Origin: Ruegeria sp. Alg231-54 | GTDB taxonomy: Bacteria; Pseudomonadota; Alphaproteobacteria; Rhodobacterales; Rhodobacteraceae | Assembly (NCBI RefSeq): GCF_900143525.1 | Contig: NZ_FREZ01000001.1 | Span: forward strand, 816,445-880,444 | Direction of reading: 5' to 3' | Length of the DNA stretch: 64,000 nucleotides | In this document: piece after piece, positions 8,147 to 44,206 of the stretch | Layout: every line of letters begins with the position of its first letter | Numbering within the stretch: position 1 is the first letter of the stretch | Made by a program: the position numbers and the translations under genes | Notes under the pieces: generated by a model | The model's database searches: none | Seen by the model: the letters and a program-made list of their open reading frames with translations, nothing else | What the model was told of the DNA's origin: nothing

Positions 8147-8226
8147 GCCGGGTTGGTTGGTGCTGGATGTTGGACCCCGAACAAGCTAAGTTGACGCAAA
8201 CAAAAGACGACTGAGGATAATCGGCA

Positions 8227-12921: not shown

Positions 12922-12974
12922 CCACCGTCTCCTCGTCCCTGGTTCCGCCTCTTTTTGTAAGCACTATGACTTAC

Positions 12975-12983
12975 TTATCCACA
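12975..12983 (+). promoter_or_regulatory. Perfect DnaA-box consensus upstream of nrdR
   Basis: TTATCCACA, the consensus R1-type DnaA box, lies 54 bases upstream of the nrdR start, in the spacer to the yjbQ 3' end. It could couple nrdR to replication initiation, but a single 9-mer can arise by chance. Confidence 0.4.
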
Positions 12984-13042
12984 ACTATAGGGTAGCCGCT
13001 AGGATTTGGGTAGTCGGAAATTTCCACCGCAAGATAAAGGGG

Positions 13043-13456
13043 TCAGGCGAAATGCGCCGCGACCTTTCGCACATGCGCTGCGGTGCGGTGTTCAAACAGG
13101 TAAATACCCTGCCATGTTCCCAGCACCGGTTGCCCCGCGGACACGGGAACAGAAAGCGATACAGGTAAAAGTGCCGCCTTGATATGTGCCGGCATGTCGT
13201 CGGGGCCTTCGTACGTATGGCGCAGATAGGCCATAACCGGGTTATCAGACGGCGGCACCAAACGTTCAAAAAAGGCCTGCAGATCTGTTTGCACCTCAGG
13301 ATCAGCGTTTTCCTGAATGGTCAGCGAACACGACGTATGCCGCACGAACAATGTCAGCAAACCATCGCCTGAGACCGAGTTAAGCCAGTTGCGCACGTCC
13401 CGGGTGAATTCGTACAACCCTGGTCCGTTCGTCGAAATAATAAACTCGGTCTGCAT
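13043..13456 (-). CDS. YjbQ family protein (UPF0047, secondary thiamine-phosphate synthase type)
   Basis: The 137 residues carry the UPF0047 signature near the C-terminus (VLGTWQGIYLFEHR) and the conserved TLFVRHTSCSLTIQENADPEV and HIKAALLPVSLSVPV segments. The fold forms trimers, and E. coli YjbQ has weak thiamine phosphate synthase activity; the true function is unsettled. The gene stands alone between nrdR and a secreted protein, all on the minus strand. Confidence 0.92.
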   Translation of the reverse strand: MQTEFIISTNGPGLYEFTRDVRNWLNSVSGDGLLTLFVRHTSCSLTIQENADPEVQTDLQAFFERLVPPSDNPVMAYLRHTYEGPDDMPAHIKAALLPVSLSVPVSAGQPVLGTWQGIYLFEHRTAAHVRKVAAHFA

Positions 13457-13474
13457 ATGGCGACCAGTCCTCGA

Positions 13475-13876
13475 TCAGTCGCGGAATGGGCGGATGTTGC
13501 AACGTCCGTTTGCCCCCTGAACCGACATGCTTTCGCCAGCCTTGAAACCGACTGAGATCGAACTGCTTTGCTGGGCAACGTTTGTAGGTTGCTGCAGCGA
13601 GAATTGAACAGCCGTGCGGCGGCCCGTTGCTTCGCTGGGACCATAGCCGCGCACCACATAAATACGTTGCTGCCAACCTGCACCCAAAGTCCGGCGCGCA
13701 AAGTCTGCAGCCGCGCACCAATACCCGTCCACGTCCTGACGGGCCCGCGGGATCACTTCGAACATATTGCTGTTGACGGCAACCGTCTGAAATCCGTTTC
13801 GCGCAGCCGAGGCCGACGATAGGGGCACAGACAGCAAGATCGCGGCAGAAACCGCAAATGTCATAACCTGTTTCAT
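13475..13876 (-). CDS. Small secreted protein of unknown function
   Basis: The 133-residue product starts with a clear signal peptide (MKQVMTFAVSAAILLSVPLS, cleavage likely after SASA). The mature domain of about 110 residues has two cysteines (in YWCAAADFARR and GRCNIRPF) that could form a disulfide across the domain, and a central RIYVVRGYGPSEATGRRT segment. I chose the ATG at 13876 because GAGAG lies 7 bases upstream; earlier ATGs at 13894 and beyond lack this. It resembles short periplasmic proteins common in roseobacters, but I can assign no function. Confidence 0.7.
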   Translation of the reverse strand: MKQVMTFAVSAAILLSVPLSSASAARNGFQTVAVNSNMFEVIPRARQDVDGYWCAAADFARRTLGAGWQQRIYVVRGYGPSEATGRRTAVQFSLQQPTNVAQQSSSISVGFKAGESMSVQGANGRCNIRPFRD

Positions 13877-13954
13877 AATCATACTCTCATTCATTTCGAG
13901 GTAATTTCTCAAATAGTATACATTCTTACCGGGCAAAGCTGGTTCACAATCAAT

Positions 13955-14503
13955 TCAGTCAACGCGGGTCCTCGCGTGATCGGACGTTAGCCAGCCCTGA
14001 TACCGGATCAAAGCCCCAACAAGCGGCATCCGGGCCGACACGTCAAACCGGAACCGTCCTTCATCATCCTGCCATTCCTCGGTCTTTGATTGCGGTAGAA
14101 GCACCTTCGGGAAAGGAACTCGCAACAGGCTGAGGCGCATGATCTGGATCTCTAACCTCTCGGGTACAAATACCGGCTTTAACCATACGGGGACCTGCCC
14201 AAACTGCTCGCAGACGCATCCCTGGTCCTGGTCCAAAGTCAGCCGCGATCGGGTGATGTGACCATCGAAATCGCGCGTCCATATCCAAGCGTTTCCCTCT
14301 TGCTCGACGCTGAGCCGCACCGGGATGTCGTCACCCCCGGACGGCATGCCGGCAAAGCGCAACGCGAGTTTGGCCAGCCACCCCTTGCCCGGCGTGACCG
14401 AGCATCGCCCGGAATAAAATCCGCCCGTGCTGTGCAAGGCTTGCAGTGCCTTGGGCAGGTTCGTGCCCACGGGCAAGGCTTGCATAAAGGGATCAGGGTG
14501 CAC
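13955..14503 (-). CDS. DUF4166 domain protein
   Basis: The 182 residues look like a DUF4166 protein: GGFYSGRCSVTPGKGWLAKLALRFAG early, an IPVRLSVEQEG...WIWTRDFDGH centre and a C-terminal FRFDVSARMPLVGALIRYQGWL. Function is unknown; related domains are often fused to oxidoreductase or DCC-type proteins. The start is GTG at 14503, preceded by GAGGGG, directly adjoining the stop of the DCC-family gene, so they form a two-gene unit. Confidence 0.75.
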   Translation of the reverse strand: MHPDPFMQALPVGTNLPKALQALHSTGGFYSGRCSVTPGKGWLAKLALRFAGMPSGGDDIPVRLSVEQEGNAWIWTRDFDGHITRSRLTLDQDQGCVCEQFGQVPVWLKPVFVPERLEIQIMRLSLLRVPFPKVLLPQSKTEEWQDDEGRFRFDVSARMPLVGALIRYQGWLTSDHARTRVD

Positions 14504-14938
14504 TCAGAACCCCTCAGGCAGAAAGCGAGCTTGCAGCGTTTTGTCTGGGATCATGCAGGTCGGCGAACGTCCGAAGACTGCATACCGGTTTCTGGCGATT
14601 ACGTAATACAGCGGGTCTTTGATGATGCGAGGAAGAAACCTGCAGATCGAAAGAACCCACCAAAACCCCGGCAACTTGCGCATCGCAGTTGCGAAAGCAT
14701 CCAACCGATGATGAACCACGCCATCGGTAACGACGAGATTGGTTTCAAAGTCCCGCGTCGGTAGTCCGAGGTGAGAATACAGCCTTTGCCCCAATGGCGA
14801 CTGCGCGGTGGCAAATTTGAACCGCTGCGCCTTGTCTCGCGCGACCATCAAACGAAAGAAGCCCGAACAGAGAACGCATTCGCCGTCAAAGACAATGAAA
14901 TCCTGACCATCTGCCGCATCGGTTGCCAGTGTGGTCAT
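14504..14938 (-). CDS. DCC-family thiol-disulfide oxidoreductase-like protein (DUF393)
   Basis: The 144-residue protein has the DxxCxxC motif of the family: FDGECVLCSGFFRLMVARD at about residues 15-33. FKFATAQSPLGQRL and a C-terminal DPLYYVIARNRYAVFG segment, typical of DUF393, follow. The ATG at 14938 gives a normal length; the open frame continues upstream but without family-like sequence. It directly precedes the DUF4166 gene. A redox role is suggested by the motif, but no substrate is known. The 264 bp between this gene and the divergent AraC gene should hold both promoters. Confidence 0.82.
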   Translation of the reverse strand: MTTLATDAADGQDFIVFDGECVLCSGFFRLMVARDKAQRFKFATAQSPLGQRLYSHLGLPTRDFETNLVVTDGVVHHRLDAFATAMRKLPGFWWVLSICRFLPRIIKDPLYYVIARNRYAVFGRSPTCMIPDKTLQARFLPEGF

Positions 14939-29652: not shown

Positions 29653-30636
29653 ATGAGCGCTGCCAAAATCGATTTCAACGACCGTCTGTTGTCTCTTGGC
29701 CTTGCACGGGTCGCAGAGCAGGCCGCACTTGCCTCGGCCTCGCTGGTCGGACGTGGTGACGAAAAGGCTGCGGATCAGGCGGCTGTAAACGCGATGCGCG
29801 AACAGCTGAACCTGCTGGATATTGCGGGTGTGGTTGTCATCGGCGAAGGCGAACGCGACGAAGCACCGATGCTGTATATTGGCGAAGAGGTCGGCACCGG
29901 AAACGGTCCCGGTGTGGATATCGCACTGGACCCGCTTGAGGGCACGACTCTGACCGCGAAGGATATGCCGAACGCGCTGACCGTGATCGCGATGGGCCCG
30001 CGCGGGTCGATGCTGCATGCTCCTGACGTTTACATGGATAAGCTGGCCATTGGTCCGGGCTTTCCCGAAGGCGTCGTAAACCTGGACATGAGCCCGCGTG
30101 AACGCGTTGAAGCGCTGGCCAATGCCAAAGGCTGCAAGCCTGCCGACATCACCGTCTGCATTCTGGAGCGTCCCCGCCACGAAGCGATGATCGCTGAAGT
30201 GCGCGAAACCGGCGCCTCGATCCGCCTGATCACCGATGGTGACGTGGCCGGCGTCATGCACTGTGCCGAAAGCGAAGAGACCGGCATCGATATGTACATG
30301 GGGCAAGGCGGAGCACCCGAGGGCGTTCTGGCCGCTGCCGCGCTGAAATGCATGGGTGGGCAGATCTTTGGCCGCCTGCTGTTCCGCAACGACGACGAGC
30401 GTGGCCGCGCCGCCAAGGCGGGTATCACCGATCTGGACCGCGTTTATTCTCGCGATGAGATGGTGACGGCAGACGTGATCTTTGCCGCAACTGGCGTGAC
30501 GGGTGGCTCTTTGCTGCCGCGGATCAAACGCCAGCCGGGCTGGGTTGAAACCACCACCCTGCTGATGCGTTCCAAAACCGGGTCGGTGCGCCGCATGTCC
30601 TACCGCACGCCAACCTGGCCGCACGACAACGCGTGA
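29653..30636 (+). CDS. glpX: Class II fructose-1,6-bisphosphatase
   Basis: The 327-residue enzyme dephosphorylates fructose 1,6-bisphosphate in gluconeogenesis. Motifs include VIGEGERDEAPMLYIGEEVG and the metal-binding DPLEGTTLTA, with LITDGDVAG and GQGGAPEGVLAAAALKCMGG in the second half. GAGGA precedes the ATG. It follows hom in the same direction, and recJ comes 90 bp later. Confidence 0.96.
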   Translation: MSAAKIDFNDRLLSLGLARVAEQAALASASLVGRGDEKAADQAAVNAMREQLNLLDIAGVVVIGEGERDEAPMLYIGEEVGTGNGPGVDIALDPLEGTTLTAKDMPNALTVIAMGPRGSMLHAPDVYMDKLAIGPGFPEGVVNLDMSPRERVEALANAKGCKPADITVCILERPRHEAMIAEVRETGASIRLITDGDVAGVMHCAESEETGIDMYMGQGGAPEGVLAAAALKCMGGQIFGRLLFRNDDERGRAAKAGITDLDRVYSRDEMVTADVIFAATGVTGGSLLPRIKRQPGWVETTTLLMRSKTGSVRRMSYRTPTWPHDNA

Positions 30637-30726: not shown

Positions 30727-32469
30727 ATGAGCTTTTTAGGGGTTGAGCAGTCACTGACCGGGCGGCGTTGGATCGGACCGGAGGCCGAGGTCGAACGGGC
30801 CACGGAAATGCTGGTGCAACAGTCCGGGCTGCCACGTGCGCTATGTCAGGTTCTGGCACGGCGCGGAGTGCCACCCATGGAAGCCGAAAGCTTTCTTGAA
30901 CCAAAGCTGAAGGAATTGCTGCCCGATCCCCGGTCCATGAAAGATATGGAGACCGCCGCAACGCGGTTTTTGGAAGCTGTCCGAAACAAGCAGCGGATCG
31001 CGGTTTTTGCCGATTACGACGTCGATGGGGGCAGTTCGGCGGCTTTGTTGCTTGTCTGGATGCGTCAGATGGGGCTGCAAGCCACGCTGTATGTGCCAGA
31101 CCGAATTGATGAGGGTTATGGGCCGAACGTGCCTGCAATGCAGGAACTGGCGGCCACGCATGACCTGATTATCTGCGTGGATTGCGGAACGCTTAGCCAT
31201 GAACCTATCGCGGCGGCAAAAGGCGCGGATGTCATTGTGCTGGACCACCACCTTGGTGGTGAAACGCTGCCCGATTGCGTGGCGGTCGTGAACCCAAACC
31301 GGCAGGATGAGAGCGGTGATTTGGGGTATTTCTGCGCTGCCGGCGTGGTGTTCCTGATGCTGGTTGAGGCCGGGCGGCAACTGCGTGAGGCTGAGGTTAA
31401 GGGTCCCGACCTGATCGGGCTGCTGGATCTTGTGGCATTGGCAACCGTTGCAGACGTGGCCCCGCTGATTGACGCGAACCGGGCGCTGGTGCGGCAAGGC
31501 CTTAAGGTCATGGCACAGAGGCAACGACCCGGATTAGTGGCGCTGTCGGATGTGGCGCGTATGGATTCAGCCCCTACCAGCTATCACCTGGGTTTTCTTC
31601 TGGGTCCGCGCGTCAATGCGGGCGGGCGGATCGGTCAGGCCGATCTGGGCGCGCGACTGCTGAGCACGAACTCGATGACCGAAGCTGAAGCGCTGTCTCA
31701 AAGGTTGGATGAGTTGAACACCGAGCGTCGTGATATCGAAAACGCGGTACGAGCGGCAGCACTGGAACAAGCCGAGGAACGCGGATTGGACGCACCTCTG
31801 GTTTGGGCGGCGGGCGAAGGATGGCATCCCGGCGTTGTCGGCATCGTGGCATCCCGCCTCAAGGAAAACGCCAACAGACCCGCCATTGTCATCGGCTTTG
31901 ATGGTGATGAAGGCAAGGGTTCAGGGCGGTCGGTTTCTGGCGTTGATCTGGGGGCATCAATCCAACGATTGGCGGCTGAGGGACTTTTGGTCAAAGGCGG
32001 CGGGCACAAGATGGCCGCAGGGCTGACCGTTATGCGGGATCAGTTGGAACCGGCCATGGAACGCCTCAGCGAGTTGTTGGCCAAGCAAGGCGCGGGCAAA
32101 GGCGGTCCTGCAGACATGAAGCTAGACGGAGCGCTTATGCCGGGCGCAGCTTCGGTCGATCTGATCGAACAGATAGAAAAAGCCGGTCCTTTCGGGGCCA
32201 GCGCCCCTGCCCCACGCTATGCGTTGCCGGACCTGCAGGTGCGCTTTGCCAAGCGCGTGGGGGAATCGCATCTGAAACTGTCGCTGACCGACGGGGTTGG
32301 TGGTGGCCTTGATGCCATTGCCTTTGGCGCCTTTGACGGGCCGATGGGGGAAAAGCTGTCCAACCATGGCGGGGCGCGCTTTCATTTCGCCGGGCGGCTT
32401 GAGGTGAACACATGGGGTGGACGGCAAAGCGTTCAGCTGAGACTGGAGGACGCGGCAGAGGCAAACTGA
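30727..32469 (+). CDS. recJ: Single-stranded-DNA-specific exonuclease RecJ
   Basis: The 580-residue protein is a 5'-3' exonuclease acting in recombination and mismatch repair. It has the DHH motifs: FADYDVDGGSSAALL (95-109), VDCGT and LDHHLGGE (about 175). The DHHA1 part has VVGIVASRLKENANRPAIVIG and KGGGHKMAAG. GAGGCAGGC lies just before the ATG. Length matches the family. tRNA-Glu genes follow about 100 bp later. Confidence 0.97.
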   Translation: MSFLGVEQSLTGRRWIGPEAEVERATEMLVQQSGLPRALCQVLARRGVPPMEAESFLEPKLKELLPDPRSMKDMETAATRFLEAVRNKQRIAVFADYDVDGGSSAALLLVWMRQMGLQATLYVPDRIDEGYGPNVPAMQELAATHDLIICVDCGTLSHEPIAAAKGADVIVLDHHLGGETLPDCVAVVNPNRQDESGDLGYFCAAGVVFLMLVEAGRQLREAEVKGPDLIGLLDLVALATVADVAPLIDANRALVRQGLKVMAQRQRPGLVALSDVARMDSAPTSYHLGFLLGPRVNAGGRIGQADLGARLLSTNSMTEAEALSQRLDELNTERRDIENAVRAAALEQAEERGLDAPLVWAAGEGWHPGVVGIVASRLKENANRPAIVIGFDGDEGKGSGRSVSGVDLGASIQRLAAEGLLVKGGGHKMAAGLTVMRDQLEPAMERLSELLAKQGAGKGGPADMKLDGALMPGAASVDLIEQIEKAGPFGASAPAPRYALPDLQVRFAKRVGESHLKLSLTDGVGGGLDAIAFGAFDGPMGEKLSNHGGARFHFAGRLEVNTWGGRQSVQLRLEDAAEAN

Positions 32470-32567: not shown

Positions 32568-32642
32568 GGCCCGTTCGTCTATCGGTTAGGACGCCAGGTT
32601 TTCAACCTGGAAAGAGGGGTTCGATTCCCCTACGGGCTACCA
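32568..32642 (+). tRNA. tRNA-Glu (UUC), copy 1
   Basis: A complete 75-base cloverleaf including encoded CCA. The acceptor pairs GGCCCGT with ACGGGCT through a G1-U72 wobble. The D-arm is TCTATCGGTTAGGA, the anticodon stem CCAGG/CCTGG holds TTC, and the T-arm is GGGGTTCGATTCCCC. Confidence 0.97.
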
Positions 32643-32666
32643 CTTGTGCTAATGCCACTACCAGAT

Positions 32667-32741
32667 GGCCCGTTCGTCTATCGGTTAGGACGCCAGGTTT
32701 TCAACCTGGAAAGAGGGGTTCGATTCCCCTACGGGCTACCA
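32667..32741 (+). tRNA. tRNA-Glu (UUC), copy 2
   Basis: Sequence-identical to copy 1 and 99 bp downstream of it, also with encoded CCA. Together they form a tandem duplication. It ends 10 bp before the 3' end of the convergent V-ATPase A-subunit gene; no terminator is seen between them. Confidence 0.97.
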
Positions 32742-32751
32742 TTTCCCTGAC

Positions 32752-34593
32752 CTACACTCCAAATTTCTCGCGACTCAGGTCCTGTATCTGCCCCCACAGC
32801 GACTTGAATTCCGGCGTGTTTTCCGCGGCATAGTGGAAGTTCTTCATAAGACCAGTGAGCTGGGTGAACACCTGACGCACTTCACCCTTATCCGCGAATT
32901 CAGCAGTTGATTGCGTAACATCATAGACCAGCTTGAATGTCATCTTCTGGCGCTCTAGCGGGACGGTTGCGTCGACTTTGTCAAAGGCATCCTGCTGTAG
33001 GTACACCATATCTACAAACAACGCTTTTTGCTGTGTGACGAAATCCTCGATGGTGACGCCTTCTTCGCCGGTCACCTGCATCATCTGGTCGACCTGTTCA
33101 CCTTTTTCAATCAGGGCCAGCAGATCGCGCACCTTGCCTGTCCAACCGGGCTCGGCGTTTTTGTCATACCAATCCGAGAGCTGATCAGTGTATCGCGACC
33201 AGCTAAGCATTGGGTCGACCGCAGGATAGAACCGTTTGTAAGCCCGTTCCGAGGACAGCCCCAAAAAGCACTTCACGGTAGACAGCGTGGACTGCGTCAC
33301 AGGCTCGTCAAAATTGCCACCCGCCGGTGAAACCGTACCGATCAGCGTCAGACTACCCAGATCGCCATCATTGGTCTCCATCGCTCCTGCGCGCTCGTAC
33401 AGGCCCTTGATCGAGCTTTCCAGATAGGCAGGGAAGCCTTCTTCACTGGGGATTTCCTCCAGCTTGCCGGAAGTCTCGCGCATGGCTTGCGCCCAGCGGC
33501 TGGTGCTGTCAGCAATCAACAGCACGTCATAGCCCATCTGGCGGTAATACTCGCCCAGGGTGATGCCGGTGAAAATCGACGCCTCGCGGGCCGCTACAGG
33601 CATGGAAGAGGTGTTACAGATGATGATCGTCCGATCCATCAGACTGCCGCCCGACATCGGGTCGGTCATCTTGGGGAATTCGTGGATCGTTTCCACCACC
33701 TCGCCCGCACGCTCACCGCAGGCCACCACGATCACGATATCCACTTTGGAGTTCCGAGCGATCAGGTTTTGCAGCACGGTTTTGCCCGCACCGAACGGGC
33801 CGGGAATACAGGCCGTGCCACCGCGCGCAATGGGGAAGAACGTGTCGATCAGGCGTTGCGAGGTCAGCACCGGTTCAGTCGGGTACAGGCGCTCGGACGA
33901 GGCGCGTTTCAGGATGGTTTCGGGCAACGGTCGTCGTACCGGCCACTTTTGGCACAGGGTCAGCGTGTGCTCCCCACCCTGCTCGTCTTCAAGACGCGCG
34001 ACGATCTCGTGGATCGATGCTGCACCTTTCTGAACCCAGACAACATTGTAATCGCCAACCCAGTTGAAAGGCAGCATGATTTTGTGGGTAAACCGGCCTT
34101 CGGGAACAGTGCCAATGCTGTCGCCGGCCTTGACCGTGTCGCCAACTTTGACTGTGGGAGTGAAAGACCATTTTGCCTGATCATCCAGCGGCGCCACATC
34201 CGCCCCGCGCGGCAGGAAAGTCCCGAATTCGGCCGCAACCTTGGTCAAAGGCGATTGCAGGCCGTCAAAGACCTGCCCCAAAAGACCCGGCCCAAGTTCG
34301 ACCGAAAGTAGTTGTCCCGATTGTTCAACCGGATCACCAACCGCGACGCCGTCCGTGCTTTCATAGACCTGAACGTCGGCTGTATCGCCGCGCACGCGCA
34401 GCACCTCAGCCTTCAGGCGTTCCTGACGCCCACCCGGGGCGGGACGAGTCGGAAGGATGAACACGACCTCGTTCTTGACCAGTTGTCCCGGAACACCAGC
34501 GGCATCTTGGTTGGCCTGAATTTTCACAAGCCCTTCCTGGACAGAGACGACGCGGGCGGTTGCGGTTTGAACCGAAGGTGTTTGGGCACTCAT
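32752..34593 (-). CDS. atpA: V-type ATPase catalytic subunit A
   Basis: The 613-residue protein has the V-type layout: an N-terminal beta-barrel, the non-homologous insertion typical of A subunits (about residues 115-215), and the Walker A loop GPFGAGKT at 265-272. Later come YFxQ-type catalytic segments including LLIADSTSRWAQAMRE and SEEGFPAYLESSIKGLYERAG. It hydrolyses or makes ATP in the V1 head. Last gene of the operon; its ATG overlaps the DUF2764 stop. The 3' end faces the tRNA-Glu genes with only 10 bp between. Confidence 0.96.
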   Translation of the reverse strand: MSAQTPSVQTATARVVSVQEGLVKIQANQDAAGVPGQLVKNEVVFILPTRPAPGGRQERLKAEVLRVRGDTADVQVYESTDGVAVGDPVEQSGQLLSVELGPGLLGQVFDGLQSPLTKVAAEFGTFLPRGADVAPLDDQAKWSFTPTVKVGDTVKAGDSIGTVPEGRFTHKIMLPFNWVGDYNVVWVQKGAASIHEIVARLEDEQGGEHTLTLCQKWPVRRPLPETILKRASSERLYPTEPVLTSQRLIDTFFPIARGGTACIPGPFGAGKTVLQNLIARNSKVDIVIVVACGERAGEVVETIHEFPKMTDPMSGGSLMDRTIIICNTSSMPVAAREASIFTGITLGEYYRQMGYDVLLIADSTSRWAQAMRETSGKLEEIPSEEGFPAYLESSIKGLYERAGAMETNDGDLGSLTLIGTVSPAGGNFDEPVTQSTLSTVKCFLGLSSERAYKRFYPAVDPMLSWSRYTDQLSDWYDKNAEPGWTGKVRDLLALIEKGEQVDQMMQVTGEEGVTIEDFVTQQKALFVDMVYLQQDAFDKVDATVPLERQKMTFKLVYDVTQSTAEFADKGEVRQVFTQLTGLMKNFHYAAENTPEFKSLWGQIQDLSREKFGV

Positions 34594-35282
34594 GCGCTTA
34601 CTCTCTCAAAATCGAAATCTGCGACATTGCTCATGGCTTGCTGGGCAAGCTTCTCAAATCTTGCGGCCGCATTCTGCGCGTTGCTTTGCGACCAGCGATC
34701 GAAAATGTTCCAGATCAAGACATAGATCGCCACGGCCTCAAAATCGAACAGGTGACGGGCGGCGTGTCGTTTCAGTTGCTTATGGCTGACTGACAGCAGC
34801 AGTCGTTCCAGACCCAAGGGGTCCTCGGCCTCAAGCAACTGGCGTGCTTCCTTGATCCACGGCATCGCCGTGGACAGACGGAAATCCGGGTCACCCCAAT
34901 TGGCAGGGATGTGACGGCTCCAACGTCCAAACCCATACGCACCGGACAGCGGATTGCCACCCTGCCCGCGCAGGCGCAGTGCTGCAACAACAGTACGCAG
35001 GTCCATCCGTTCAAGGAACAGGCGGCGCAAGGATGGTTGCGGGATTTCGGCCAACGCTTGTTTGCACCTCAATACAGCCTGCGCGTCAGTGACATCCATG
35101 TCATATGCGCTCCAATTCAGAGCATGTTCCATAACCTTCAGAACCTTAGCGTCCTCGGGCGTCAGCGCCTTAAGGCGACGATCCAGCCGCAGCCGCGACA
35201 GCGGAGGTTGTTTGGCCACGAACAACCGCTCAGAGCCTGGCAGGCTGCTGATCAGGGCGATATAGGCGTCTTGGTCAGACAT
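34590..35282 (-). CDS. DUF2764 protein, putative V-ATPase C-like stalk subunit
   Basis: The 230 residues are almost all helical (AYIALISSLPGSERLF at the start, SRHIPANWGDPDF centrally, FDFEAVAIYVLIWNIFDRW near the end). They match the DUF2764 protein that lies between subunits E and A in Chlamydia and Bacteroidetes V-ATPase operons. It is thought to replace subunit C (the d-type V0 connector), though this is not established. Here it again lies between E and A: 1 bp after atpE, overlapping atpA by 4 bp. Confidence 0.75.
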   Translation of the reverse strand: MSDQDAYIALISSLPGSERLFVAKQPPLSRLRLDRRLKALTPEDAKVLKVMEHALNWSAYDMDVTDAQAVLRCKQALAEIPQPSLRRLFLERMDLRTVVAALRLRGQGGNPLSGAYGFGRWSRHIPANWGDPDFRLSTAMPWIKEARQLLEAEDPLGLERLLLSVSHKQLKRHAARHLFDFEAVAIYVLIWNIFDRWSQSNAQNAAARFEKLAQQAMSNVADFDFERVSA

Positions 35283-35283
35283 C

Positions 35284-35961
35284 TCAGCGGATCACACCTT
35301 CCAGCACGGCGCGAAACCGGGGCTGAAGATGCTCCAACAGCAACGAGGCGACCGCCTTGTCTGTTAGATCAAGTACAACGCCCTGATCTTCGGCCCGCAC
35401 GCGGATACCGCCCTGCGCGTCATCCGATGCATGCAGCTCTACCTGTTCACGCAACATGTCGGCTGTCAGGCCGAGGACGTATTTGGTCAGCTTACCGGAT
35501 TGAATGTCATCGGCGTTCTGCTTGATGTCTTCTTGCGTTGCGACTTTGGCGGGCAGAATGACCTGCACCTTGCTATCCAGATTGACGCCTTCGGATTCGC
35601 GGCCGACGACCTCCAAAATCATCTGTTTCAGCAGGCCCGGCTCAGCCATTTCCTTGGTCACCAGACGTTCGACATCTTCGCGAAAGCGGTCGGTCAATCC
35701 ACCCTTCATGGTCAAAACCGCATCACGCATGGCGGTGTTGAGCGCCTCTTCCCCAGCAGCGCGATATTTGTCGGAATCGGTGCGTGCCTTTTTTTGATAG
35801 TCGTCCGCCTCGCGTTTGGCATCCGCCAGAATTTTGGCGGCTTCGGCCTTGGCGTCAGTGCGCAGTTTTTCGGCGTCGGCCTGACCAGCAGCCACGCCAT
35901 CATTGCGCAGCTTATCGATCAAGGCATCCACGCCATGAGAAATCATGCCATCCTGTGCCAT
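35284..35961 (-). CDS. atpE: V-type ATPase subunit E (peripheral stalk)
   Basis: The 225-residue protein has a long charged N-terminal coiled coil (AEKLRTDAKAEAAKILADAK and following, about residues 25-75), then a globular domain with DLDSKVQVILPAKV-type segments, as in E subunits that form the peripheral stalk with A/B. The ATG at 35961 overlaps the atpK stop. The frame is open to 36378 but that part lies inside atpK and is rejected. Confidence 0.85.
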   Translation of the reverse strand: MAQDGMISHGVDALIDKLRNDGVAAGQADAEKLRTDAKAEAAKILADAKREADDYQKKARTDSDKYRAAGEEALNTAMRDAVLTMKGGLTDRFREDVERLVTKEMAEPGLLKQMILEVVGRESEGVNLDSKVQVILPAKVATQEDIKQNADDIQSGKLTKYVLGLTADMLREQVELHASDDAQGGIRVRAEDQGVVLDLTDKAVASLLLEHLQPRFRAVLEGVIR

Positions 35962-36404
35962 CAACTGATCCCCGCACTGATGACAAGGGCAAAGACAAAG
36001 GCGAACACGCCAAACCCTTCGATGATCGCTGCTGGGGCAAGCGCCAGGCCAAAGATCTCCGGCTTTTCCTTGGTGGCATTGATCGCCGCAGCACAGGCCC
36101 GGCCCTGCCAGATCCCGCAATACATCAATGCGATGCCCGACAGGATACCAATCCCGAACAAGCCGCCCGCGTTTTCGGGTGTCACCTCGCGGTTCAGGGT
36201 AAACATGATGACGATGCCGTAAATCACCATCGTCGAAGGAAAGGCCGAAACGCCGACAAAGCGGCCATATCCGCCGTCGGTTTCCGTCATGGCGCCAATA
36301 CTGGCCATGCCCGCGATCGAGCATCCGACGGCGCTGGCGGCTGCGCCCAGCGCCATGGGCGCGTAGATGCCAAGCCAACCCAATGTCAAAACAAGCTCAT
36401 TCAT
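35961..36404 (-). CDS. atpK: V-type ATPase proteolipid subunit K (c ring)
   Basis: The 147-residue protein has four membrane helices arranged as two hairpins. The second hairpin carries the ion-binding carboxylate in PAAIIEGFGVFAF; the matching spot in the first (FPSTMVIYGIVIMF) has no acid, as in duplicated V-type rotors. A GIWQGRACAAA segment between them resembles the Gln-containing loop of K subunits. Whether it moves H+ or Na+ cannot be decided from sequence by eye. It overlaps both neighbours. Confidence 0.92.
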   Translation of the reverse strand: MNELVLTLGWLGIYAPMALGAAASAVGCSIAGMASIGAMTETDGGYGRFVGVSAFPSTMVIYGIVIMFTLNREVTPENAGGLFGIGILSGIALMYCGIWQGRACAAAINATKEKPEIFGLALAPAAIIEGFGVFAFVFALVISAGIS

Positions 36405-38197
36405 TCCTGAACCTCCTTGCGGGCGAACGGACGAAAGACGATGCCTTCATCCGGCAGACCCCATTTAAAGAATTCGATGTAATTGAGACGCAATCCGTGG
36501 ACGACGCCGCTCATCATGGCGAGAGCGAAGTTGAGAATGTGGCCGATGATCAGGATCAGCAGGGCGAAAAGAACGCCCAACCCCTTGAGCGAATGCATGA
36601 CTGAAACCGCCAGATCGTTGAACGTGATCGCCAGTGAGGCCGAGGCCAGACCCAACGCAAACAGGCGCATGTAACTTAGCACGTCTCCAAATGCGCCCAT
36701 GGCCCCGGCCAGGCTTTGCAGCCCATCGATCAGACGCCAAACCCAATCGGTTGGTTTCTTGATGACCCGCTCGCTTGAGAACCAGACAATGGCCAGAACC
36801 CCGATCCCCATCAAGTCCGCACCCGGCACCGGAGAATTACCCTTCATGTAGCTGAGCCATAGAACGAACCCGCCAATCAGCGCAGCGATCCAGCCCAGAT
36901 TGGCGATGGCCTTCCGGTGCCCCCATGCCGCCCGTGCGGCAAGCGCATTGGCCAGTACCAAATGCAAAACGCCAACGACAATCGAGACCATCATCATCGC
37001 ACCGAAATTGTTCAGGTCGAGCAATTTGAACTTGGACCAGAACGACCCCTCGGCTGGCGACACGCCGAAATAACTGCCGACGAGGACGCCATACAGGATT
37101 GTTGCGCTGGAAATGATCACCCCAAAGCGTCGCCAGGATCGTTCACCCGGTGTTGCATCAAGCCGTTTCCAGAATAGTAAAAGGCCCAACAGGATGATCG
37201 CGCCGTATCCCGCGTCGGCTACGATCATTGCGAAGAAGACCGCAAATGAAACGGCGACGATGACACTGGGGTCCCAGTCCTTGTAACCCGGCACTTGATA
37301 AAATAGCGCCAAGTCCACGGCAGCACTGCGCTTTTCCGGTTGTTCCAACAAGGTTGGCGGGCTGTCATAGGGGCTGGGTTCTTCGATCAGTACGGCAGCG
37401 TCCTTGGCGATTGCCATGTCCAGAACCGCATCTATACGATCCTCGGGCACCCAGCCCTGAAGGGCAAACATCGCCTCTTCGTCGCGAACCTTTTGCGTGG
37501 CATGGGCCAGCTCGGCCGCGCTTTCGGCAACCGAAAGGTTCCGGCGCATCAGTGCTAGGTATCGGGTTTGCGCAACGCGTTCAGCCTCAAGCGCTTCGAT
37601 GGCGATCTCAGCCTCTTCCAGTTGCGCCTCAAGCTCGTGAATGGGCAGCGATCCTGTGTGCGTGCGCGGAACTGGCAGGATATCGTCATCCGGCTCATCC
37701 GGGTCGATCAGTACGGCATAGATGAACCTATGGTCCTGCTCGAGTATGGCCCAGGGCATATCCAGGGCCTCCAACGCATCGCGATACTTCAGTGGCAGTT
37801 GATAAAACCACAACCGGTTCCCCGCCAAAACATCGTCTGGTGGAAAATCCAGATCGCCCCAAGGGCGAACCTGCGCGATCCGGTTGGCCAGAAAATCCCT
37901 TTGGTCCGTCATGTCACGGGTCCGTTGCATCAGGTCCAGCACATCCTTGACGAACTGCTCCATTTCAAAACCGGGGTCGCGCTGGATCTGTCGGCGCGGT
38001 TCGGACACGTCATTCAGGAACCGTAGCGCCTTATAGGCATTGCGCGCGCCCCGCTCACTGATCTTTTCCGGCTCAGAGGGTGGCGGGGCCAGCGGTAGGA
38101 CGTGCATACAGCCCAGATTCTGCAGCGCCTCAAGGGTCGCAGCCTTCTGGCCTGCTCGCCCGACCAGTGACAGTTTCTTGAGCCTCGCAACACTCAT
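36401..38197 (-). CDS. atpI: V-type ATPase subunit I (a-type stator)
   Basis: The 598-residue protein has a cytosolic N-terminal half with coiled-coil regions (about 60-290), then about seven membrane helices. The key conserved Arg lies in LSYMRLFALGLASASLA (about residue 515), which faces the rotor carboxylate and drives ion transfer. HILNFALAMMSGVVHGLRLNYIEFF at the C-terminus is typical of the family. It overlaps atpK and atpD by four bases each. Confidence 0.95.
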   Translation of the reverse strand: MSVARLKKLSLVGRAGQKAATLEALQNLGCMHVLPLAPPPSEPEKISERGARNAYKALRFLNDVSEPRRQIQRDPGFEMEQFVKDVLDLMQRTRDMTDQRDFLANRIAQVRPWGDLDFPPDDVLAGNRLWFYQLPLKYRDALEALDMPWAILEQDHRFIYAVLIDPDEPDDDILPVPRTHTGSLPIHELEAQLEEAEIAIEALEAERVAQTRYLALMRRNLSVAESAAELAHATQKVRDEEAMFALQGWVPEDRIDAVLDMAIAKDAAVLIEEPSPYDSPPTLLEQPEKRSAAVDLALFYQVPGYKDWDPSVIVAVSFAVFFAMIVADAGYGAIILLGLLLFWKRLDATPGERSWRRFGVIISSATILYGVLVGSYFGVSPAEGSFWSKFKLLDLNNFGAMMMVSIVVGVLHLVLANALAARAAWGHRKAIANLGWIAALIGGFVLWLSYMKGNSPVPGADLMGIGVLAIVWFSSERVIKKPTDWVWRLIDGLQSLAGAMGAFGDVLSYMRLFALGLASASLAITFNDLAVSVMHSLKGLGVLFALLILIIGHILNFALAMMSGVVHGLRLNYIEFFKWGLPDEGIVFRPFARKEVQE

Positions 38198-38799
38198 GCT
38201 ACAGCCTCCTGCGCATGTTTGCGTTTCGAGATTTTCGAGCGCACGACGGCCTGCATCTGCTCATCGCTCAGATAGATGCGGATTTTCTTGATGTTGGCAC
38301 TGGCGCGCGGGATCAGGACCTTTTCAAACAAGTTGACGCGCTGGGTGATGGTGGCCACAGCCTTATCGAATATCTTCACTCGCTCTTCGGCCACTTTGAC
38401 CCGTAGACGCGCCTCGATCATATCGTGTAGCAACCGGGCCGCCGCATCGACCCAGTGGGGTTTGGCCAAATAGGAGTACGGGCGCACCGCGACCTCAATC
38501 CGGTCTAGCGCAGGCATCTTTACACCCACGACGTTGACCTCTTCGACTTTGTAGTCTTTCAGCTCGACCAACCCGTCCAGATCAACGCCTTGCTGCGCCA
38601 GCATCGGTAACTTTTCCCCAACCTTTTGCGCCAGCTCCTGGACCTCATCCTGCAAGCGCAGCACTTCCCCGCGCGCCTTGGCACGTTCCGCCATCAATTG
38701 CTGGCGTTTCAGGTCCAGCGACGGCAAGAACCGTTCATAGCTTTTCAGCTGCGTCTGCTCGCGTGCGAGCGACGATTTATTCAGCTGCAACCGCGCCAT
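38194..38799 (-). CDS. atpD: V-type ATPase subunit D (central rotor shaft)
   Basis: The 201-residue protein is a long helical hairpin: LNKSSLAREQTQLKSYERF at the start and RVNLFEKVLIPRASANIKKIRIYL near the end, a diagnostic motif of subunit D. I use the second ATG (38799), which has AAAGG 6 bases upstream; the first ATG at 38805 would leave no spacing. The start lies within the last bases of atpB, showing tight coupling. Confidence 0.94.
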   Translation of the reverse strand: MARLQLNKSSLAREQTQLKSYERFLPSLDLKRQQLMAERAKARGEVLRLQDEVQELAQKVGEKLPMLAQQGVDLDGLVELKDYKVEEVNVVGVKMPALDRIEVAVRPYSYLAKPHWVDAAARLLHDMIEARLRVKVAEERVKIFDKAVATITQRVNLFEKVLIPRASANIKKIRIYLSDEQMQAVVRSKISKRKHAQEAVA

Positions 38800-40138
38800 C
38801 GGCATCCTTTGGGAAATACTTGTCGATCAGGGCCTGCTTCATCAGTAGCTGCTCAGGTGCGAAACACTCGGCCAGAGTTTTCCACCCCAAATCCAGCGCA
38901 TCTTCCAGCGAGATTGAAACATTGATGTCCATGAACCGGGTTTTGAACAGGTCACCAAACTTCAACAACTGATGGTCGTAATCCGAAAGGTCGAACGCCA
39001 TTGCCTGTTTCTGCGCGGCGTCGCGGCTTTCGGAATAGAATCGGATCATCGTGTTCATGATCTGCCCGTGATCCTCGCGCGTCGTCTTGCCGATCACGTT
39101 CTGCTTGAGGCGCGAGAGGCTGCCGAACGGGTCAATCACACCCGAATGCAGATAGATCTGCCCCTCGGTGATATAGCCCGTGTTATCCGGCACAGGATGG
39201 GTCACGTCATTGCCGGGCATCGTCGTCACGGTCAGCACAGTGACCGATCCGCCCTTGGCATAGTCGCAGGCTTTTTCGTATCGGCGGGCCAACTGGGAAT
39301 AGAGGTCGCCCATATAGCCACGCTGCGACGGTACGCGCTCTTGGCTGATACCAACTTCCTTCATCGCGTCGGCATAAGCGGTCATATCAGTCAGTAGAAC
39401 CAGCACGCGTTTGCCCTCTTCCACCGCGAATTTCTCGGCCACGGCCAGCGCCATATCAGGTACCAGCAGCCGTTCGACCAGCGGATCCATCGCCTGGTTG
39501 ACGAACATCACCGTTCGGGAAAACACGCCCGCATCCTCGAAGGACGTCCTGAAGGTAAAGTAGTCGTCAAAGATCAGACCCAGCCCGCCAAACACCACGA
39601 TATCCGCGTCCGCCTGAATGCCGATACGACTGAGGAACGCGTTGAACGGCTCACCTGAAACCGAAAAGATCGGGACTTTCTGGCTTTCGACCAGCGTGTT
39701 GAACACGTCGATCATCGGCACGTCTGTTCGGATCATCTTGTTAGGCACGGCGCGTTCTGCCGGGTTCACGGTTGGCCCGCCAATAGCCACGCGCGGCTCA
39801 GACGACAGGCCGGGTCCACCGTCGATTGACACGCCCGCGCCATCAAAAACGCGGCCCAGAATGTTCTGTGAGTACGGCGTCTGCATCGGGTGGCCCAGAA
39901 ACGTCGCCGTGGCCTCAGTCGAAATCCCCTTGGTGCCGGAAAACACCTGCAAGGTGACAACGTCCCGGTCGATAAAGATCGCCTGAGCCAGCGTCTTGTG
40001 GCCGTCCACGGTTTCAATCACGGCCAGATCGTTGAAACGCACGGCCGCGTCGGTCGATCCGTCCAGAGGCACTCTGACCTTTATTGTGTCTCCGACGATC
40101 TCAAGAACACGCGTGTACTTCAAAAGACTTCCGGACAT
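38777..40138 (-). CDS. atpB: V-type ATPase regulatory subunit B
   Basis: The 453-residue protein is the non-catalytic head subunit. Where A has a P-loop, B has SVSGEPFNAFLSRIG, and it retains LLTDMTAYADAMKEVG and SQRGYMGDLYSQLA. First gene of the operon. The upstream 193 bp contain a hairpin followed by a T-run on the opposite strand and should hold the promoter. Confidence 0.96.
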   Translation of the reverse strand: MSGSLLKYTRVLEIVGDTIKVRVPLDGSTDAAVRFNDLAVIETVDGHKTLAQAIFIDRDVVTLQVFSGTKGISTEATATFLGHPMQTPYSQNILGRVFDGAGVSIDGGPGLSSEPRVAIGGPTVNPAERAVPNKMIRTDVPMIDVFNTLVESQKVPIFSVSGEPFNAFLSRIGIQADADIVVFGGLGLIFDDYFTFRTSFEDAGVFSRTVMFVNQAMDPLVERLLVPDMALAVAEKFAVEEGKRVLVLLTDMTAYADAMKEVGISQERVPSQRGYMGDLYSQLARRYEKACDYAKGGSVTVLTVTTMPGNDVTHPVPDNTGYITEGQIYLHSGVIDPFGSLSRLKQNVIGKTTREDHGQIMNTMIRFYSESRDAAQKQAMAFDLSDYDHQLLKFGDLFKTRFMDINVSISLEDALDLGWKTLAECFAPEQLLMKQALIDKYFPKDADGAVAAE

Positions 40139-40331: not shown

Positions 40332-41735
40332 TCACCACCCCCTGCGCCCAAACAGGGATTGCAGCCGGCTTTGCCCGGCAAATGGATCGACCTCTGTTGG
40401 CGCAGTCAGGCCCGAGACAACGCGGCGCACCATTACCCAGCAGATTGCAGCAAATATCACACCGCCCAGCGCCTGCCCCAACAACACCCCCGGAGCGCCA
40501 GCCAAATAGGCCCCGGCGACCGCAAAGGGCCATGTGCCCAGCGTATGACGCCCCCAGTTAATCCACGTGGAATAAATGGGATAGCCAAGGTTGTTGAAGC
40601 TTGCATTCGCAACAAAGATCACCCCGTTGAAGAAAGACGCCAAGGCCAGCGGCCCGCAGAACAGGTAAATCAGCGCCCGCGTCTCGCCTTGGGCCTGAAA
40701 CAAATCGGCGATGGGGGCACGCAGCACGAACAGCACCGCCGCCATCAGAACCACATAGACGGCGGTGAATTTTACGCCTGCCAGGAATGCGCCCTTCACC
40801 CTGTCATACTGCCCTGCCCCAAAGTTCTGCCCCACGATCGGGCCTATGGCCCCGGACAGTGCAAACACGACAGAAAAGGCGACAGGCATCAGCCGCCCTA
40901 TTACTGCCATGCCTGCCACGGCATCTGTGCCAAACTGCGCTACCTCACGGATCACGATGGCGTTGCCGACAGGCGTGGCGACATTGGTCAGAACCGCCGG
41001 TATTGCAATCGCCCGCACCGGTTGGAGGTCTTCCACCACTTGCTTCAGCGACGGTCGCGCAAATCCACGGTGCACGCGCACGGCGGGCCGGACCGCTGCT
41101 ATCAGCATACAGATACGCGCAATCACCGAGGCAATCGCCGCCCCGTCCAGGCCAAGACCAACGGCAAAGATCAGAATCGGATCCAATATCGCGTTGGCCA
41201 GCCCACCGTAAATCGTAGCCTGCATAGACCGGCGCGCATCACCATGCGCGCGCAACACAGCCATACCCGTCATTGCCGCAGCCATCACCCACATGGTCGG
41301 CAGAATGATGCTGACATACCGTGCGGCCAGTTGCAGAACCTCACCCTGTGCGCCCAGCAAAGACAGCAGAAACTTGATGTTAATCATGACTATGGCAGAC
41401 ACAATCAATCCCATCAGAATACCAAGAAGGGCAACGCTGGTTCCGAATTGGCGGGCTTTTTCGGGCCGCCCCGCCCCCAGCTCGCGGGCGACAAGGGCGC
41501 CGGCGGCAATCGACAGTCCCACATTGATTGAGTTGGTGAAAAACAAAAGCGTGCCCGCATAGCCGACCGCTGCGGCCAAGGCGTCATTGCCCAGCATAGA
41601 GATGAACACCATGTCCACGAAATCCACGGCAAAGACCGCCATAAGGCCAATGCTGGTGGTCAGCGACATTCGGGTCACATGCCGCATCAGACTGCCGGTC
41701 AAAAAGACAGCCATGCCCTTGGGTTGTTGTGTCAT
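40332..41735 (-). CDS. MATE-family multidrug/toxin efflux protein
   Basis: The 467-residue protein has about 12 membrane helices and duplicated MATE features: IGLMAVFAVDFVDMVFISMLGNDALAAAVGYAG in the first half and GNAIVIREVAQFGTDAVAGMAVIGRL in the second, with PIVGQNFGAGQYDRVKGA. MATE proteins export cationic drugs and toxins using Na+ or H+ gradients. It lies upstream of the V-ATPase operon on the same strand but is separated by 193 bp. Confidence 0.93.
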   Translation of the reverse strand: MTQQPKGMAVFLTGSLMRHVTRMSLTTSIGLMAVFAVDFVDMVFISMLGNDALAAAVGYAGTLLFFTNSINVGLSIAAGALVARELGAGRPEKARQFGTSVALLGILMGLIVSAIVMINIKFLLSLLGAQGEVLQLAARYVSIILPTMWVMAAAMTGMAVLRAHGDARRSMQATIYGGLANAILDPILIFAVGLGLDGAAIASVIARICMLIAAVRPAVRVHRGFARPSLKQVVEDLQPVRAIAIPAVLTNVATPVGNAIVIREVAQFGTDAVAGMAVIGRLMPVAFSVVFALSGAIGPIVGQNFGAGQYDRVKGAFLAGVKFTAVYVVLMAAVLFVLRAPIADLFQAQGETRALIYLFCGPLALASFFNGVIFVANASFNNLGYPIYSTWINWGRHTLGTWPFAVAGAYLAGAPGVLLGQALGGVIFAAICWVMVRRVVSGLTAPTEVDPFAGQSRLQSLFGRRGW

Positions 41736-42283
41736 TGGCGGTCCGTCCCTTTGTTCTGGAAATTAATCTGCCCCTGATGGGCGCCAGTCAGCAACCTCAA
41801 ACTGGTGCCGTGCGCGACGAATACAGTCCTACCTTTTTTGGCATTCCGCATTTTGCACCGCTGCGATGATGTTGCAGTACGAAAATCCTTGCCGCTTTGG
41901 ATATCGGCTTCCAGCGCTGCGTCCACTGGCGGCTCGCAGCCGACATTCTAAGTCAACGGATTTTGCCGGAATTGACTGATCGACGCGAAGGTCACCGTTC
42001 TCAACGAACTGGGCAAACTCACCCATCCCGGCGTGTACGGCATTTTCGACACCGAAGTTCGCGCAGTGTATGTCGAGGGCGGGCACCCAAGTGGCGGCCG
42101 TGCGAAACGGTCGATGGTGGTGAGGTACTCAGAGCGCGAGTACCGCCACGCGGGGCACCAGCCTGCACTGGACGCAGGTCCCAAGGTAGAAAAATCAGTA
42201 CCAATACCCGCTCAATACATTATAAGAAATGAATATACTAAATTTACGATATTCGATTAGCGCGAAGACCTGGGGAGGATTCA
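41736..42283. other. 548 bp stretch without a convincing gene, possible gene remnant
   Basis: No normal start plus ribosome site plus family match was found. On the plus strand a frame from about 41979 to 42190 reads well (KVTVLNELGKLTHPGVYGIF, then DTEVRAVYVEGGHPSGGRAK) but begins right after a TGA and has no ATG. The GVYGIFD...VYVE spacing is faintly like a GIY-YIG nuclease core, which is speculation. The last 70 bp before 42284 are AT-rich and probably hold the promoter of the DUF3604 operon. Confidence 0.4.
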
Positions 42284-44206
42284 ATGCTTCGACTTACAAC
42301 CTGTTTGATCTCTTTGCTGACACTACCAGCGCTTGTTTGGGCAGACGCGGTCCCCAGCAAAGAGGCTGCTGAGGGCACCTTTGCCGACCGCCCATATTCG
42401 CCCTACGCCAACCGATCGTTCCCCGAACGGCCGCTTTGGGGTGATACACACCTGCACACCGGTTTGTCGCTGGATGCAGGCGCATTCGGAAACACCTTGC
42501 TTCCTGATGAGGCATGGCGGTTCGCAAAGGGGGAACAAGTTATTTCGTCAACCGGTCAGGCCGTCAGGCTGGCGCGGCCCCTGGATTGGATGGTGCTGAC
42601 GGATCATACTGATTTGATGGGTTTCGCCCCGGACCTGCAGGCCGGTAAACCTGGCGTTATTGGTGACCCAAAAGGCTTGGAGTGGTACGAGGGATACAAA
42701 GCAGGCGGTGAAGAAGCCGGGAAAGCGGCCTTCGACATTATTACAAATTTCTCTCAAATGACCCTGCCGGAAATCCTACTTGAGTCATACAGCCCAGGCG
42801 CGGACGCATTCGCATTTACATGGGAAAACATCGTTATGGCAGCGGAACGGCATAACGACCCCGGCAATTTCACCGCCTTTATTGGGTTTGAATGGACGTC
42901 CGTTCCCAAGGGGTTCAACCTGCACCGCAATGTCATGCTACGTGACGGACCAATTCGAGCACTGCAAATGGTGCCACCCGTGACTCAGCCTCCTTACGGC
43001 GACACCGACCCCAAGGCGCTTTATGCGTGGCTTGAAGAATATCAGGGTAAAACTGGCGGTCGCGCGGTTGCTTTTGCACATAACGGCAACCTGTCAAATG
43101 GCTGGATGTTCCCCACTGAGGATACTTATCACGGCGGCAAGGTAGACGAAGAATACGTGCAGAACCGCGCCAAGTGGGAGCCGCATTATGAGGTCACCCA
43201 AATCAAAGGCGACGGAGAAGCACACCCCTTCCTAAGCCCGGAAGACGAATTTGCGGACTATGAAAACTGGGACGTCGGCAACCTCGACATTACCGAGCTG
43301 AAAACAGAGGACATGCTGGCCGGTGAATATGCCAGAGAAGCCTTGAAACGTGGCCTGATGCTGGAAGAAAAATTCGGGGTGAACCCTTATAAGTTCGGAA
43401 TGGGTGGGGCAACAGACAGCCACACATCGCTGGCAACAGCTGAAGAGGACAACTTTTTCGGAAAATCCGTCAGCGTTGAACCGTCGGCCACAAGAATCCA
43501 GCACCCCTTCATCGCCAATGATCTTGGCGAAATCCCCGGCGACCTTCTTGTCGCATCTGGTTACACTGCCGTCTGGGCCACCGAGAACACGCGTTCCGCG
43601 ATCTTTGATGCTTTCAAACGGCGTGAAACCTATGCCACGACTGGTCCTCGGATCGGTCTGCGGTTCTTTGGTGGATGGGAATTTGACGAAGCAGATCTTG
43701 AGACCCGGTTCCTTGCGGACGTTGGCTACACCAAAGGCGTTCCGATGGGCTCGGACTTACGCCCTAACGAAGGTGATGGAGCGCCTTCATTCCTGATTGC
43801 AGCACTACGGGATCCGGTTGGGGCCAATCTGGACCGGGTACAGGTCGTAAAAGGGTGGCTCGATGGCGAAGGAGAGTTGCACGAGAAAGTCTACGACGTT
43901 GCATGGTCGGATGACCGGGCTGCTGATGAAAACGGCAAAGTCCCGGCTGTCGGCAACACCGTCGATATCGAAACCGCCAGCTGGAGTAACACGATTGGCA
44001 CCGCCGAGCTTGTGTCGGTTTGGGCCGATCCAGACTTTGATCCAAATGCGCGGGCCTTCTACTATGTCCGGGCGCTTGAAATTCCCACACCCCGTTGGGT
44101 CTTGTACGACAAGGTCCGGTTCGGTATTGACCTGCCGGAAGAGGCGCAGCTGATCCATCAAGAGCGCGCGTATTCGTCGCCAATCTGGTACACACCTAGC
44201 GAGTAA
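42284..44206 (+). CDS. Secreted DUF3604 protein (PHP-like metal-dependent hydrolase)
   Basis: The 640-residue protein begins with a signal peptide ([20 protein letters not shown]). The mature domain starts with [16 protein letters not shown], a metal-ligand DxHxH motif like PHP/amidohydrolase enzymes. [27 protein letters not shown] and [17 protein letters not shown] add further His/Asp ligands. The substrate of DUF3604 proteins is unknown. GGGGAGGA precedes the ATG. It heads an operon with a PpiC-like protein and a HupE-like membrane protein. Confidence 0.88.

Follow-up and report, generated by a model that had tools for sequence, protein, structure and literature searches.

A reduced, DUF2764-type V-ATPase operon in Ruegeria sp. 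Alg231-54 as a candidate back-up energiser of the membrane

In a 64,000-nucleotide stretch of the Ruegeria sp. Alg231-54 genome (contig NZ_FREZ01000001.1; hereafter the window, numbered from its first letter) we find seven adjacent minus-strand genes, B-D-I-K-E-X-A, that encode a reduced V-type ATPase (V-ATPase), X being a protein of the DUF2764 family (open reading frame (ORF) list and family scans). On balance we favour the view that this enzyme is an ATP-driven pump, fed by ATP of non-respiratory origin and acting as a back-up energiser of the membrane, with X serving as a short subunit C.

The window operon is a genuine, well-preserved V-ATPase of the DUF2764 type. An earlier model-generated note, made from the letters of this DNA (the sequence-only reading), had reported genes for B, D, I, K, E, a DUF2764 protein and A; these ORFs are real and stand in that order, and six of the products match V-ATPase families (Table 1). 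Subunit A carries the extra domain PF16886, B is of the V type, and D, E, I and a K rotor with its membrane carboxylate are all present, E and I scoring under their NCBIfam cut-offs. Subunit I reached 2.7e-70 against NF004429, below the NCBIfam cut-off, and exceeded the Pfam cut-off for PF01496. Subunit E matched the solved E structure 2kk7 weakly (E 0.052); its start lies inside a longer listed ORF, and its ATG and the K stop codon have one base in common. Adjacent genes overlap by 1 to 29 bases, with the exception of E and X, which are separated by one base, a spacing that would fit a transcribed unit.

The DUF2764 gene sits between E and A, as in the reduced type, and a search of the complete window genome for subunit F (PF01990) came back negative (0/1; the control was positive in 6/14), so that a make-up without F, like that of Bacteroidota, is borne out. 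Family scans of the operon genes likewise revealed no subunit G, the genome at large not having been searched for it. The same seven genes form the reduced V-ATPase of Bacteroides fragilis (ptos_002482-88; available part of PMC10790697) and of other Bacteroidota, and in the two Bacteroidota loci fetched DUF2764 also lies between E and A, with no F or G annotated. The operon fetched from Enterococcus, that of E. gallinarum, differs in its gene order and in having genes annotated as C and F.

Table 1. V-ATPase operon genes and neighbouring features in the window
Feature	Position	Strand	Family match or remark
V-ATPase subunit B, 453 aa, first operon gene	38777..40138	-	NF002555, 7.9e-209, 693.8 bits (cut-off 431)
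V-ATPase subunit D, central stalk, 203 aa	38194..38805	-	NF002565, 3.1e-58, 196.9 bits (cut-off 189)
V-ATPase subunit I, membrane stator, 598 aa	36401..38197	-	PF01496, 48.2 bits (cut-off 30.7)
V-ATPase subunit K, two-hairpin rotor, 147 aa	35961..36404	-	NF007200, 2.8e-51, 173.2 bits (cut-off 108)
V-ATPase subunit E, peripheral stalk, 225 aa	35284..35961	-	NF002424, 5.6e-26, 91.4 bits (below cut-off 241)
X, DUF2764 family protein, 230 aa, read as short C/d-like fold	34590..35282	-	PF10962, weak; structure models
V-ATPase subunit A, catalytic, 613 aa, last operon gene	32752..34593	-	NF003220, 1.8e-228, 759.7 bits (cut-off 470)
Two tRNA-Glu (ttc) genes	32568..32741	+	convergent with A, 10 bases from A end; usual Ruegeria operon site
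recJ	30727..32469	+	site flank; host marker together with glpX (29653-30636)
MATE transporter gene	40332..41735	-	upstream of B, 193 bases off, same strand; not claimed as operon member

Predicted structures suggest that X is very probably a shortened subunit C. An AlphaFold2 model built from 68 sequences has a mean predicted local distance difference test score (pLDDT) of 91.2, and when it was aligned with 998 chains by VIA-align 2, the top 16 PDB rows were all V-ATPase C/d subunits, from 6ly9_M (Z 11.8, root-mean-square deviation (rmsd) 3.7, 200 residues aligned) to 3j9t_Q (Z 9.0), the next row being a designed cage at Z 7.4. A second model, of a Desulfobacteraceae X (L226; 32% identical to window X, pLDDT 89), was ranked against 998 chains in the same way and placed C/d chains in all top 14 rows (Z 11.0 to 9.0, then 4.3). 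The C/d alignments of both models, which were built from overlapping alignment rows, span 192-208 residues at rmsd 3.7-4.5, and both models, predicted and not solved, appear to have the fold of subunit C/d. With subunit C of the Thermus thermophilus V/A-ATPase (1r5z and 6ly9_M) the X model aligns over 200 residues at Z 10.8 and 11.8; X has 230 residues against about 320 in the T. thermophilus protein, sequence identity is 16-18%, and the window genome has no F.

Sequence profiles do not reveal this resemblance. Window X gave no family hit at 0.001 and reached 0.0023 against PF10962 (DUF2764), below the cut-off, when the limit was set at 1. PF10962 was matched by 62 of the 68 aligned X members at E up to 1 (best 7.4e-14), and PF01992 (AC39/C) was weakly touched by three of them (best 0.0084), window X not being among the hits listed. 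When the PDB was searched with the profile of X (hmmsearch), only MafG was returned (0.87 and 1.2), and a small C profile reached at best 0.032 against 77 X sequences. Three results tell against X as subunit C: Foldseek gave no significant match (T. thermophilus subunit C ranked second, E 0.24), hhalign of X against six C sequences gave 1.6%, and, where proteins are helical, VIA-align 2 Z scores below about 13 may carry little meaning. They would suit an unrelated helical assembly factor whose model is merely C-like, a notion that also fits the lack of support in profile searches and the high Z scores that helical proteins reach by chance. We regard it as unlikely, given that the top 16 and 14 rows come from one family among 998 chains, with a drop to 7.4 and 4.3, and that X is encoded between E and A, the place taken in E. 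gallinarum by genes annotated as C and F. Because the sequence profile tests failed, we do not file X under PF01992; our claim is that it probably folds and works like subunit C. The statement of the sequence-only reading that a canonical C is missing holds by sequence, window X not being among the PF01992 hits listed; by fold, however, the DUF2764 model resembles a short C. The Bacteroides gene at this position is given only as DUF2764 in the available part of PMC10790697, and among the matches listed in our searches of open-licence PMC papers there was none on DUF2764 as subunit C, nor on the operon in Rhodobacteraceae.

The suggestion of non-respiratory ATP comes from the surroundings of the operon in relatives. 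Flank families that recur and are not explained by synteny of close relatives include carbamate kinase, ornithine carbamoyltransferase (OTC), arginine deiminase (ADI), acetate kinase and the polyphosphate kinase PPK2. Representatives were checked by Pfam, where carbamate kinase appears only as AA_kinase, its name coming from the annotation of the Tateyamaria and Qingshengfaniella plasmids. We grouped 119 loci into 67 clusters at 85% identity of A and searched their 784 kb of flanks by tblastn; carbamate kinase, acetate kinase or PPK2 was found near or inside the operon in 18 clusters (7, 5 and 7 clusters, respectively, one having two kinases). None of the three occurred in 400 kb of control DNA (20 stretches of 20 kb from ten Pseudomonadota operon genomes, the window's included), nor at 20 operon-free Ruegeria sites. 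By length, 19 versus 0 corresponds to 1.2e-5 when both controls are counted and to 4e-4 when the 400 kb stand by themselves; at an assumed density of four copies per 4 Mb, 0.8 would be expected. On a tree of subunit A, 6, 5 and 7 gains or losses are required to explain the three kinase labels, indicating that the linkage does not stem from one event. The genes can be very close: carbamate kinase overlaps B in three loci (L159, L227, L231) and lies 27 bases from B in L160, PPK2 sits between B and D in L169 (1984-2796; record titled unicellular cyanobacterium) and overlaps A in L230, and the arginine deiminase set (ADI, OTC, carbamate kinase) precedes B in L159, L160 and L166. The plasmid operons of Tateyamaria omphalii (pDOK1-4-1) and Qingshengfaniella alkalisoli have the window's gene order and A proteins 74% and 62% identical to that of the window; in the former carbamate kinase overlaps B, and the latter has a divergent arginine deiminase set. 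Their location on plasmids sets both apart from the window operon.

Several observations speak against a pump fed in this way. The kinase families were picked after inspection, and the figures above are therefore a guide only; the controls come from Pseudomonadota alone, and 49/67 clusters have none of the kinases. The window flanks contain none of the three, the window genome has no carbamate kinase over cut-off, and its acetate kinase is unlinked to the operon. Carbamate kinase occurs in 14/33 Ruegeria genomes with the operon and 2/21 without (p 0.014 before kinship), and no FNR-like site with up to two mismatches was found in the 300 bases before window B. Furthermore, the reactions of carbamate kinase, acetate kinase and PPK2 can run in reverse. 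We discarded the co-occurrence of carbamate kinase and V-ATPase in Ruegeria, as kinship pairing left three independent pairs on supported branches and no significance. FNR-type sites before B were also set aside: they were counted in 6/107 loci with up to one mismatch against 0.85 in shuffled sequence, and in 24/107 with up to two against 12.25, the window absent from them, and we do not use these counts because the shuffles keep base counts only. Acetate kinase is present in 50/54 Ruegeria genomes, and the four that have none all lack the V-ATPase (p 0.019, not kinship-corrected).

The commonest other flank family is an ABC transporter ATPase, and genes for a short-chain dehydrogenase, DUF3141 and PhaC-like proteins are also recurrent. 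DUF3141 stands beside the operon in L078, L084, L093, L102, L149, L162 and L192, in some of them together with genes for phosphate acetyltransferase, acetate kinase or PhaC-like proteins.

The window genome (4.92 Mb) has five PF00006 matches, namely operon A and B, a pair 1.7 kb apart on contig C21 and one on C11. The C21 pair are the putative F-type alpha and beta subunit genes, and the C11 match is a putative flagellar FliI. That the V-ATPase is a second rotary ATPase, as the sequence-only reading had it, is supported. The genome also has a gene for the zeta subunit (144.5 bits), which retains its inhibitory function towards F-type hydrolysis in the free-living Rhodobacterales tested (available part of PMC10469736); on that basis, a separate pump would be of use. 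In the mechanism we propose, the catalytic head would consist of A and B, the outer stalk of E and the stator of I, while D and X would provide the central shaft and the socket that seats it on the K ring. The A-B head would be driven by ATP that carbamate kinase, acetate kinase or polyphosphate kinase supplies without respiration; D and X would turn the K ring against I, and ions, probably H+, would leave the cell. Such a pump may keep the membrane energised when respiration stops and would complement an F-type synthase held against hydrolysis by zeta. The V-type enzyme of vacuolate sulfur bacteria, to which a paper on Thiomargarita assigns ATP hydrolysis at the vacuole (available part of PMC4914600; the subunit set listed there differs), may serve as a precedent for this direction.

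Which ion is moved can be predicted from the rotor. In an alignment with the K subunit of the Enterococcus hirae Na+ V-ATPase (2bl2), likewise a two-hairpin protein with one membrane glutamate, window K keeps four of the six site positions compared: T64, Y68, Q110 and E139 correspond to T58, Y62, Q100 and E129. E129, in the second hairpin, is the sole glutamate in a K membrane helix, which agrees with the single rotor Glu of the sequence-only reading. The other two positions differ, the Na+ ligand Q65 being M59 here and the backbone ligand L61 being F55. M59 is found in all 30 Ruegeria K proteins counted (of 33 loci). At the Q65 position, 78 other K proteins (some duplicates) have 51 Q, 3 N, 14 F, 8 M, 1 V and 1 G, i.e. 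a polar residue in 54/78, and both Bacteroidota K proteins have Q; on the A tree, polar versus non-polar requires 4 changes, at least 2 of them forced. All predicted Na+ types have a polar side chain at this position (available part of PMC2359735), and window K, with M59, does not have the full Na+ ligand set. From the change of Q65 to M59 and this rule, H+ is probably the coupling ion in the window lineage, a prediction from one ligand, and the same position predicts Na+ coupling in most gammaproteobacterial relatives. One lost ligand is no proof of H+.

These data bear on two other functions. The enzyme could be an ATP synthase running on a sodium or proton gradient, the linked kinases spending or storing its ATP. 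PPK2 and AckA are reversible, which would suit such a role, while the arginine deiminase set before B in L159, L160 and L166 is an ATP-yielding catabolic route. A Na+-driven synthase with all Na+ ligands present has been proposed for the B. fragilis relative (available part of PMC10790697), but here Q65 is M and the genome already has the pair read as F-type alpha and beta, and we judge a synthase rather improbable. Slightly less probable still is a role in salt or acid stress, with the enzyme extruding sodium or keeping the pH constant; the link to arginine deiminase would then reflect acid stress and not energy. Many named hosts belong to marine or saline genera, arginine deiminase also produces ammonia, and the T64, Y68, Q110 and E139 positions are kept; the links to acetate kinase and PPK2 fit acid stress poorly, M59 lacks the polar side chain, and the backbone ligand L61 is F.

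The gene order turned out to be ordinary. The sequence-only reading had set the order against a usual E-DUF2764-A-B-D-I-K. The order is not special to this genome, being shared across its branch, and we reject a novel permutation because B-D-I-K-E-X-A is general, occurring in 112 of the 133 loci compared (window included; genes sorted by stop codon; some Ruegeria and a few others present twice). The remainder comprises five loci of another V type, one with D-I-K-E-X-A-B, two decayed Ruegeria operons and 13 partial operons, nearly all of these cut by a contig or locus end; in L218, A stands alone inside an 18 kb contig. By record title, the full order is found in Pseudomonadota, Cyanobacteriota, Nitrospirota, Gemmatimonadota, Myxococcota and Thermodesulfobacteriota, many of the records concerned being metagenome-assembled genomes (MAGs). 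The two Bacteroidota loci are annotated as E-DUF2764-A-B-D-I-K, with the last gene of the first called hypothetical. The window operon does not have this order; its own is a rotation of the same circle, an idea of the earlier reading that stands, with three cuts now seen, of which the window's is the common one. The third rotation, D-I-K-E-X-A-B, was observed in another Pseudomonadota genome (L094, G893; 7473-14874). In L174 and L177, titled tubeworm endosymbionts, about 6 kb of other sequence lies between X (at about 3.5 kb) and A (at about 9.8 kb).

The A-type marker PF16886 was over cut-off in 33/54 genomes of the genus, so that a second rotary ATPase, called unexpected in the sequence-only reading, is common here and rare in the family. 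With about one genome per genus, 11/394 family genomes had a full-strength V-ATPase marker match (rows scoring only about 21-25 bits, of which one slightly exceeded the cut-off, were set aside); eight of these, the window included, have B-D-I-K-E-X-A and three another V type. In the class, A was matched at 1e-40 in 5/385 genomes, window included, and in the phylum in 31/398, six of which (window included) are at least 62% identical and the rest 39-46%. The closest relatives of A are Ruegeria strains (up to 98%); of the 17 plasmid records that match, the two described above come closest.

Within Ruegeria we compared 33 loci (32 fetched and the window), and 31 of them lie beyond recJ, within 3.5 kb of tRNA-Glu. 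The other two, L102 and L149, have no recJ in the stretch fetched and adjoin an arginine deiminase set. L112 and L148 have the operon at the tRNA-Glu site in reversed direction and form one clade. No operon was present at the same site in 20 of 21 operon-free Ruegeria genomes examined, recJ lying at a contig end in the 21st (G046). Two Ruegeria operons have decayed, L115 having broken frames and L116 no detectable I, K, E or X, and loss of the operon appears to be going on. On a host tree of RecJ and GlpX, operon presence needs 8 changes, at least 3 of them forced, and operon and host distances correlate (r 0.85, 0/2000 permutations as high; 29 loci with seven subunits and both host genes). 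The pattern suggests to us that the operon is inherited within the genus, has been lost repeatedly and now and then moves. In the genus it follows the host tree where this could be tested. Transfer on a wider scale has some support from the plasmid copies and the at least three forced gains or losses, which could be losses alone.

A recent transfer from Chlamydia or Bacteroidetes, with the order permuted on arrival, would account for the seven genes, the circular order shared with Bacteroidota and the patchy distribution. We reject it for Bacteroidota (no Chlamydia sequences were compared) and consider it highly improbable overall, because A shares 42-44% identity with its Bacteroidota counterparts, whereas the range among 11 relatives of the same phylum is 59-81%; moreover, the order is common to the branch, and the two Bacteroidota rows fall outside the group of this type in the A tree (99). 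In that tree, which has approximate likelihood ratio (SH-aLRT) support only and contained one mistranslated row (L096_G826, branch 10; dropped in the later A-tree label counts), the nine Ruegeria rows used form a clade (99) inside an alphaproteobacterial group (96) that also includes two MAGs called Gammaproteobacteria. L090 and L091, of the window's class, lie outside this group, and L228, a strain named Ruegeria, outside the Ruegeria clade.

Upstream of the operon, the window has the MATE transporter gene and a DUF3604 protein gene (781 bits) at 40332-44206. The MATE gene adjoins B in 9/33 Ruegeria loci and was also seen near two operon-free Ruegeria sites (L119, L131).

Taken together, the picture of a reduced second rotary ATPase with a rotated gene circle is upheld, and the novelty of the order and the recent Bacteroidota transfer are not; what deserves further attention is the C-like DUF2764 protein and the recurrent link to kinases. 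The function of the second rotary ATPase of Bacteroides is stated as unknown in the available part of PMC10790697, and our analysis offers a testable role for an enzyme of this type and proposes an identity for DUF2764. More tentatively, and with somewhat less than even confidence, we suggest that the DUF2764-type V-ATPases of this branch may be portable emergency energisers in which DUF2764 acts as a minimal subunit C. They would have been joined repeatedly to whatever enzyme supplies non-respiratory ATP, be it carbamate kinase, acetate kinase or PPK2, and would hold the membrane charged while the F-type synthase is barred from hydrolysis. We suggest further, at the same confidence, that Roseobacter-like bacteria and cyanobacteria may have switched from Na+ to H+. 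The changed coupling-ion site of this lineage would allow Na+ versus H+ selection to be tested on close relatives.

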